Assembly: GCA_016932115.1 (NCBI GenBank)
Contig: JAFGDM010000247.1
Span: 1-42,318, forward strand
DNA from: Deltaproteobacteria bacterium
GTDB lineage: Bacteria > Desulfobacterota > DSM-4660 > Desulfatiglandales > HGW-15
Direction: 5' to 3'
DNA: 42,318 nucleotides
The first letter of the stretch is position 1. Each line of letters starts with the position of its first letter. The translations under genes were made by a program, and so were the position numbers. The notes below the pieces were generated by a model. That model did not search any database, had not been told where the DNA came from, and was given only the letters and a program-made list of their open reading frames with translations. This document shows, in pieces, positions 40,801 through 42,318 of the stretch.

Positions 40801-41466
40801 TCAGGGTTCAAATACACACAGTCCTCTGATGCTTCCCGCACCGAACTGCTCCATGGTTTCAGCCGCAACCGTCAATCCTTCTTTAAGATAGACCGCATCG
40901 ATCCCGGGCACCGCATAGGTATAAAAAAGTACATTGGCCGAGTCGTCTTTCACCCTGGTTTTTTCATCCGCGCCCTGGCACAAAATACAGATGATGTCCT
41001 TTTCATCCCGGAGAACGATCTCTCTCTCTTTGGTCGTGAACCGACGGCCTCCCATTCCTTCGCCCGTCTCTCCCTCCCGCGCTATGTCCAGGGTTAACCG
41101 GCCCTCGATCCGATCGTAATCCGTAACAGCCACCAGAATTCCCGCACACATCTCGGCCATGAAGTGGGCGTCCACCGGAAGGTTGTACCGAGGGAATCCG
41201 CTGTTCACCGTTCTCTTCAAATGCTTCGACAGGGGACACTCAAAGCCGAAGCTTTGAAAAAACTCGTCGTACCTATTGATTCGCTGCGTTATTTCAGCAA
41301 GTGTATCCCGCTTTCGCATTTTTCGCAGGAGCTTTCTTTTGTATTGGTCATACCCATGCTGAGCGGCCATGGCTTTGCAGCCGGTGATGAGTGTCAGCCC
41401 GAAAGCCACACCCGGGTACCTGGCCTGATAGGCGGCTGAAATCGAGAAGTCTATCCACGAACCCAC
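40801..41466 (-). CDS. Stand-alone B3/4-domain protein (PheT B3/B4-like)
   Basis: INRYDEFFQSFGFECPLSKHLKRTVNSGFPRYNLPVDAHFMAEMCAGILVAVTDYDRIEGRLTL... ILCQGADEKTRVKDDSANVLFYTYAVPGI. GTG start at 41466 has SD AAAGGAG; listed ORF extends to 41514. Confidence 0.7.
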   Translation of the reverse strand: MGSWIDFSISAAYQARYPGVAFGLTLITGCKAMAAQHGYDQYKRKLLRKMRKRDTLAEITQRINRYDEFFQSFGFECPLSKHLKRTVNSGFPRYNLPVDAHFMAEMCAGILVAVTDYDRIEGRLTLDIAREGETGEGMGGRRFTTKEREIVLRDEKDIICILCQGADEKTRVKDDSANVLFYTYAVPGIDAVYLKEGLTVAAETMEQFGAGSIRGLCVFEP

Positions 41467-41528
41467 GACGTTATCTCCTTTCACGACATTCCCTTCTCGC
41501 AATCCTTGCCACAATATCTCCCATAGTT

Positions 41529-41735
41529 CGCGAGGTGGCTGAGTAATCCCTCAACCTCCTTCTTACCCATGTCTTTGGAATGAGTTTTCCCCCCGTAAAA
41601 TTCCACGAATTGGAGAATCCGGTCGCAATATGTTTGTTCCGTCCGATATGCATAGCGGCAGAATCTCAGCACGTGCTTCACCTGGTCCATCAGATGTAAG
41701 CTGCTGTCAGGCCTAAATTTTGGCTTGTTTTCCAT
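41529..41735 (-). pseudogene. Truncated integron-integrase (IntI-like tyrosine recombinase), N-terminal SAM-like domain only
   Basis: MENKPKFRPDSSLHLMDQVKHVLRFCRYAYRTEQTYCDRILQFVEFYGGKTHSKDMGKKEVEGLLSHLA, then unrelated residues and a stop; catalytic domain absent. Confidence 0.78.
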
Positions 41736-42011
41736 ACCATCAGTTTGTAAAATAAAAAACTGGAAAATTGCACTATCCTTTTCCGCATTTATAGATTCTA
41801 AATTTAATGCGAGAATATTTGGATTTTTTACCATGCTATAAAGGCAATATCAAGGAAACTCCTCCATCCATCCAAACTGTTCGACAGGGATGCAACAAAT
41901 TGAAGGTTTTGAAAATACAAACTCTGGAGAAGGGCTGGTGTGACAAAGATCTTGTCATGTTACACGCCGTCTTTTAGCTTCCGATCAGGCAGTTCCTGTG
42001 GAGTTAAGAAT

Positions 42012-42068
42012 GCCTAAGCCTCAATCCAGATGATGCCGCAAGGCGCCCCGCTGATTTCGACGTTAAGC
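42012..42068 (+). other. attC-like integron recombination site
   Basis: Imperfect inverted repeat GCCTAAGCCTCAATCCAG...GCC-GCAA-GGC...CTGATTTCGACGTTAAGC; ends with GTTAAGC, matching GTTRRRY. Confidence 0.5.
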
Positions 42069-42085: not shown

Positions 42086-42318
42086 ATGAAAAAACTATCA
42101 ATAGTAATTGTATTATTCTTCGCGGGGTGTGTTGGGATACCTGACAATGTATCACCCGTTGATAATTTCAAGTTAGAGAGATATCTGGGTAGGTGGTACG
42201 AAATAGCGAGGTTGGATCATTCGTTCGAACGAGGTTTGAGCCGGGTAACAGCAGATTACAGTTTGCGGGATGACGGTGGTGTAAAGGTACTGAATCGCGG
42301 GTACTCTGCCAAAGAAAA
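42086..42318 (+). CDS. Lipocalin family lipoprotein (Blc-like), partial at window end
   Basis: Direct translation: MKKLSIVIVLFFAGCVGIPDNVSPVDNFKLERYLGRWYEIARLDHSFERGLSRVTADYSLRDDGGVKVLNRGYSAKE; lipobox FAGC and GRWYEIAR. Confidence 0.85.
   Translation, partial: MKKLSIVIVLFFAGCVGIPDNVSPVDNFKLERYLGRWYEIARLDHSFERGLSRVTADYSLRDDGGVKVLNRGYSAKE

Follow-up and report, generated by a model that had tools for sequence, protein, structure and literature searches.

An integron relic with a truncated integrase gene beside an amino-acid operon in a deltaproteobacterial contig

At the right end of the analysed window, a stretch of 42,318 nucleotides that is the entire contig C290 of the source assembly G000 (3.73 Mb, 323 contigs, 95% complete, 3.35% contamination), a short minus-strand reading frame resembles an integron integrase and ends close to the start of a gene of a BCAA locus. 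The locus raises the question of whether an integron has decayed at this place, what is left of it and how often the same has happened in related genomes. The end of the window is an integron relic beside an amino-acid operon, and its integrase is dead. The elements keep the order usual in integrons: attI separates the truncated intI, which is encoded on the minus strand, from a cassette side that reads on the plus strand. Taken as a whole, the locus is very probably a sedentary chromosomal integron relic in which intI has been cut short, attI is still recognisable and the adjoining lipocalin gene is probably a captured cassette.

The integrase remnant and its junction with the B3/4-domain gene

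The features of the left part of the locus are as follows:

40801..41483, minus strand: B3/4-domain gene (stand-alone PheT-type B3/B4 domain), start GTG 41483 or 41466
41516..41517, no strand: junction between the end of intI homology and the sequence upstream of the B3/4 gene, placed by comparison with relatives
41517..41735, minus strand: integron integrase remnant, codons 1-73 (MENKPKF...LSHLANYGR), from profile matches and comparison with relatives

The open reading frame check of the window showed the frame at 41481-41834 on the minus strand. The first-pass annotation had read it as encoding the N-terminus of IntI, and this was confirmed by matches to Pfam PF13495 (44.4 bits, cut-off 27) and to the NCBIfam integron-integrase models NF011946 (37.7 bits) and TIGR02249 (33.3 bits). 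The last two matches cover the N-terminal part of the models only, roughly the first 57-71 positions. The similarity of the IntI part of the frame is far above chance. Its origin from an integron rather than from another phage integrase was likewise upheld, as the best matches are integron models, intact relatives of 331 aa and annotated integron integrases. The best PDB match was the IntI4 structure 2a3v (E = 0.004). Most of the matches in plasmid and phage records were annotated as integron integrases, class 1 and class 3 enzymes included, and the remaining features had no annotation or a generic name. ATG 41735 is the start of the gene (MENKPKFRPD...), as it is in intact relatives, and the remnant is 65% identical to the closest intact IntI found.

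According to PF13495, the integron-integrase models and its nearest homologues, which are IntI, the remnant carries the N-terminal core-binding domain of the IntI type. The catalytic domain is missing: the remnant stops at codon 73, the residues R..H-x-x-R..H..Y are absent, and so is the IntI-specific insert of the C-terminal half. When the G000 assembly was searched with the full IntI, the best match comprised residues 1-73 only, which agrees with the earlier view that no catalytic domain is encoded downstream in any frame. The further matches seen in G000 were ordinary Xer-type or degenerate recombinases, and no intact intI able to act in trans was found in this 95% complete assembly. The similarity had been described as ending right after LSHLA; the abrupt stop was correct and the exact end point was not, as the homology goes four codons further, to 41517 (NYGR after LSHLA in the window vs ATHGR in G076 and G058).

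Intact IntI proteins of the same lineage (331 aa) are present in G029, G080, G047, G066 and G076. All five have R146, H277-x-x-R280, H303 and Y312 (G029 numbering), and intact relatives carry the IntI-specific insert ..LPGALARKYPNA..FGWQYVFPS... Intact members of the lineage were also found in many named genomes, mostly Desulfobacterota; carriers outside this group include Auribacterota, a KSB1 genome, Kiritimatiellales (among them Pontiella sulfatireligans) and a methanotrophic endosymbiont of Bathymodiolus.

The conservation of single residues was compared at 37 positions, each kept in at least 93% of 29 intact IntI copies. Seven of them are changed in the remnant, while the 29 intact copies have a mean of 0.8 and a maximum of 3 changes, and the changes at invariant or near-invariant IntI positions include HH to CR and W to R. 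The fragment is a pseudogene. An open frame across 73 codons and a partly preserved domain would also fit a stand-alone core-binding domain that was retained as a functional small protein or as a regulator; this is nevertheless highly implausible, as positions invariant or nearly so in intact IntI have been altered, remnants elsewhere stop at varied codons, from 0 to 97, several of them containing stop codons, and the final codons of the frame are read from foreign DNA.

Beyond the junction, the B3/4-domain gene is followed by citramalate/2-isopropylmalate synthase-like genes. Its start had been placed within about 60 nt of the remnant, and both candidate codons, GTG 41483 and GTG 41466, do lie 34-51 nt past the end of the intI homology. 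Eighteen other genomes of the order carry conserved copies of the gene (61-74% identity), and one more has a distant copy; no intI was found at the start of the gene in those relatives. In G007 and G015 it is likewise situated upstream of a citramalate/isopropylmalate synthase-type gene, and an aldo/keto reductase lies beyond its start. Since the gene is conserved in relatives without intI beside its start, the integron side is foreign to the locus, and the proposed junction between a dead integron and the BCAA locus is supported.

We infer that a deletion or rearrangement took out intI codons 74 to about 331, by which codon 73 would have been fused to the DNA immediately upstream of the B3/4-domain gene. 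The junction may have formed by one deletion or in several steps. A native B3/4 leader might start exactly at the junction, but the window leader resembles those of G007 and G015 only weakly (p about 0.02 against shuffled sequence, and no convincing local alignment), which is too little to date the join.

A misjoin of the end bearing intI, attI and the lipocalin gene to a BCAA contig might be suspected in a metagenome-type assembly of 323 contigs with 3.35% contamination, all the more as the integron sits at a contig end. However, when the assembly was searched for the junction sequence, it occurred only once, and with a single-copy junction a repeat-driven misjoin is unlikely. The fragment also bears independent signs of decay, and truncated copies are the rule among relatives, so that an assembly artefact is quite improbable.

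The attachment site and the lipocalin gene

The other side of the fragment, which the first-pass annotation had not covered, holds a recognisable attI and a probable lipocalin cassette:

41725..41753, plus strand: candidate cassette promoter Pc, TTGTTT, 17 nt, TAAAAT, weak (8/12 matches), overlapping the intI start
41740..41889, minus strand: attI-like region with three TGGAAAA/TTTCCA-type motif groups (nhmmer profile, 62.8 bits, E = 6e-19)
41879..41885, plus strand: putative attI crossover core GTTCGAC, within AAACTGTTCGAC (from 41874), where the conservation between genomes stops
41886..42061, no strand: interval from the attI core to the R'-like box, no attC-like palindrome detected in palindrome searches
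42062..42068, plus strand: GTTAAGC, in agreement with the attC R' consensus GTTRRRY, located 17 nt ahead of the lipocalin ATG
42086..42318, plus strand: gene for a lipocalin (Blc-like lipoprotein), incomplete at the contig end (PF08212, 55.8 bits)

Eight genomes of the order, the genome of the window not among them, supplied the sequences for the nhmmer profile of attI, which gave only one match in the window; model R2 scored 59 bits at 41745-41887. The profile also matches directly upstream of intI in about 26 named loci. About 150 nt upstream of intI are conserved across genomes and end sharply at AACTGTT on the cassette-ward strand, and in the window, too, attI is present next to and upstream of intI. 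Given the profile match at 41740-41889, the first 33 codons of the frame as annotated earlier (41736-41834), are attI sequence in a chance open frame and not protein. At the attI sites examined in the order, the ORF after the AACTGTT point varies from site to site, as is expected for first cassettes, and in most measured cases it starts 18-60 nt further on. In G046, this arrangement belongs to a related array that has three attC-like sites and an intI that is truncated.

Right beside attI, upstream of it, a hairpin-like stretch GATARG(G/C)(C/G)(G/A)GACCGCTCG was observed in G028, G007 and G002 (L007, L010 and L014), and it may belong to a first attC.

By analogy with known integrons, before its decay IntI would have inserted circular cassettes at attI by recombination with their attC, and the first cassette would have been expressed from a Pc promoter situated between the integrase gene and attI. 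The boxes of the candidate Pc point toward the lipocalin gene, and 6 of 10 relatives had comparable boxes, in which the end of the -10 lay 17-19 nt before the intI ATG; a generic promoter scan of the window did not pick up the candidate at 41725-41753. Transcription of the lipocalin gene may come from this promoter at the attI/intI boundary. In V. cholerae, Pc and Pint overlap (PMC3948777); unlike the V. cholerae Pc, the promoter in the window is a weak sequence match only. Retention of Pc was also considered as the reason for keeping the stub and rejected, as the candidate lies at the very start of intI and cannot account for 73 codons.

The lipocalin gene is the first ORF past attI in the window, and its ATG lies 208 nt from the attI core, as against mostly 18-60 nt at other sites, a distance that speaks against the integron reading. 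Of the attC features, the window shows the R'-type box GTTAAGC at 42062 and no palindrome; no attC palindrome was found in the window, and an attC beside the lipocalin gene was rejected because no structure there was better than shuffled sequence. With model R1, no attC was found elsewhere in G000; R1 likewise fails to detect the divergent attC-like repeats in contig C453 of G058. The stretch of 176-183 nt that separates the attI core from the R'-like box has neither an ORF of its own nor an attC structure, and it is possibly the leftover of a lost first cassette.

The homologues of the lipocalin gene occur in a cassette-type context. The ATG of the G058 homologue (79% identical over the compared part) is situated 19 nt behind the last of three near-identical 65-nt attC-like repeats, and the box equivalent to GTTAAGC of the window is GTTAGGC, the end of an attC-like repeat. 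The G025 homologue (66%) lies between two attC-like sites, one 15 nt upstream and the other 4 nt downstream of it, of which the downstream one is only weakly supported by model R1 (E = 0.03). Within the order, the lipocalin gene has a patchy distribution (11 of 85 genomes), and its copies are highly similar from one family to another. Lipocalin-type cassettes, vlp, are found in the V. cholerae superintegron too.

From its position and its relatives, the lipocalin gene of the window is probably an integron cassette gene. The competing view that it is an ordinary chromosomal gene, and that only the intI/attI piece comes from an integron, has a modest chance of being right, as attC stands neither before nor after the gene in the window, the far side being lost at the contig end, and the homologues in G014, G023 and G074 have no nearby attC-like site above the stringent level; it is the location on the cassette side of attI, in cassette orientation and directly behind an R'-type box, together with the attC-like sites flanking the homologues in G025 and G058 and the patchy distribution, that speaks for a cassette. 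The stub, being without active-site residues, can no longer insert or excise cassettes, and the lipocalin gene, probably a captured cassette, would now be immobile. Since the integrase is dead, the array can no longer be altered by the window copy. In the terms of IntegronFinder, In0 is an intact intI without attC and CALIN are attC sites without intI; the window integron is incomplete like these, but it retains attI and an intI stub, a state covered by neither class.

Palindromes like the attC-like repeats of G058 were also noticed in G025:C3 (L201:3407-3504 and L202:9837-9934). They adjoin pairs of a transposase-like and a tyrosine-recombinase-like gene (L201:3750-5800 and L202:10180-12227), as if this gene-pair element were linked to attC sites.

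Integrase loss at attI sites of the order

The attI model search of 85 genomes of the order revealed 22 sites at E ≤ 1e-10 in 14 genomes, and these counts are lower bounds for weak sites, as only part of the candidates was scored. G000 was not in the training set of the survey model, and 6 of the 22 sites were. Intact intI was present at only three strong sites (G029:C254, G080:C188 and G066:C309), and the other 19 retain 0-97 codons of the intI 5' end. G065:C171 keeps codons 1-33 plus about 271-331, G045:C12 keeps codons 1-59 plus 313-331, and the remnant of G031:C26 is scrambled. The deleted copy of G065 and the intact copy of G066 occupy the same chromosomal site beside a lepA-like gene, which shows decay of intI in place by internal deletion. 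At two further loci, G047:C338 and G076:C286, intI is intact and no attI is present in the assembled sequence. At G047:C338 (L028:1-233), the first codons of a near-complete IntI (83% identical) and attI have been swapped for unrelated sequence; thus, intact integrase genes can lose attI too.

Two other explanations of the truncated copies were rejected. As G065 and G045:C12 keep both ends of intI, MITE-like transposon derivatives were considered. A mobile element was rejected on two grounds: intact copies share no conserved DNA beyond the 3' end of intI, and the G065 remnant has the chromosomal position and the neighbouring gene of the intact copy in G066. The recurrent breakpoint near codon 70 suggested by the first survey was given up, since the wider attI-based set ends at 0 to 97 codons, and no hotspot is claimed.

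The high decay of intI is already known, and the window is a fresh instance of it. Nearly one third of the surveyed intI genes are pseudogenes (PMC2426708), Xanthomonas lineages have lost intI through frameshifts, stops and large deletions (PMC12444791), and in an evolution experiment an active class 1 integrase, which was costly in fitness, disappeared through mutations (PMC3510236). It is thus known that losing integrase activity is favoured (PMC3510236, PMC2426708, PMC12444791). With three intact genes at 22 attI sites, the loss exceeds that in intI searches, where roughly one third were pseudogenes (PMC2426708), the two figures being not directly comparable because the attI search also catches sites with intI wholly gone. 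The window is a case of ordinary integron decay, and its only unusual point is the frequency of such decay among close relatives.

The locus is similar to the sedentary chromosomal integrons with inactivated intI of Xanthomonas (PMC12444791) and of the survey (PMC2426708) in that intI has been deleted or truncated, the recombination site and cassettes remain and the rate of integrase decay is high. It differs from them in its host group and its IntI/attI lineage, and it shows one probable cassette only, because the contig ends. With the Vibrio cholerae superintegron (IntIA, attI, Pc; PMC3948777) it shares divergent intI and cassettes with attI between them, whereas the superintegron keeps an active integrase and a large array.

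It is conceivable, although we consider it rather doubtful, that attI outlives the integrase in this order. Most platforms would then be integrase-less attI sites with a first gene; they would be retained because they serve as promoters or landing pads, and an intact IntI of the lineage would act on them in trans in the genomes that have one (G029, G080, G066 and G047). If this were true, integrase-based surveys would overlook many integron platforms. The use of the present case is a lineage-specific attI profile, as, to our knowledge, standard tools find attI for only a few integron classes, and integrase-less platforms like that of the window would then be missed.

Among the individual sites, attI with little or no intI was observed at G029:C50:7522-7651, G029:C246:11327-11451, G080:C17:13832-13971, G066:C141:1831-1969, G058:C314:1394-1528, G031:C37:52819-52937, G045:C80 and G045:C85. 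There are sometimes several such sites per genome, most of them with an ORF start close to the attI point, and three genomes with such sites have an intact IntI of the same lineage elsewhere.
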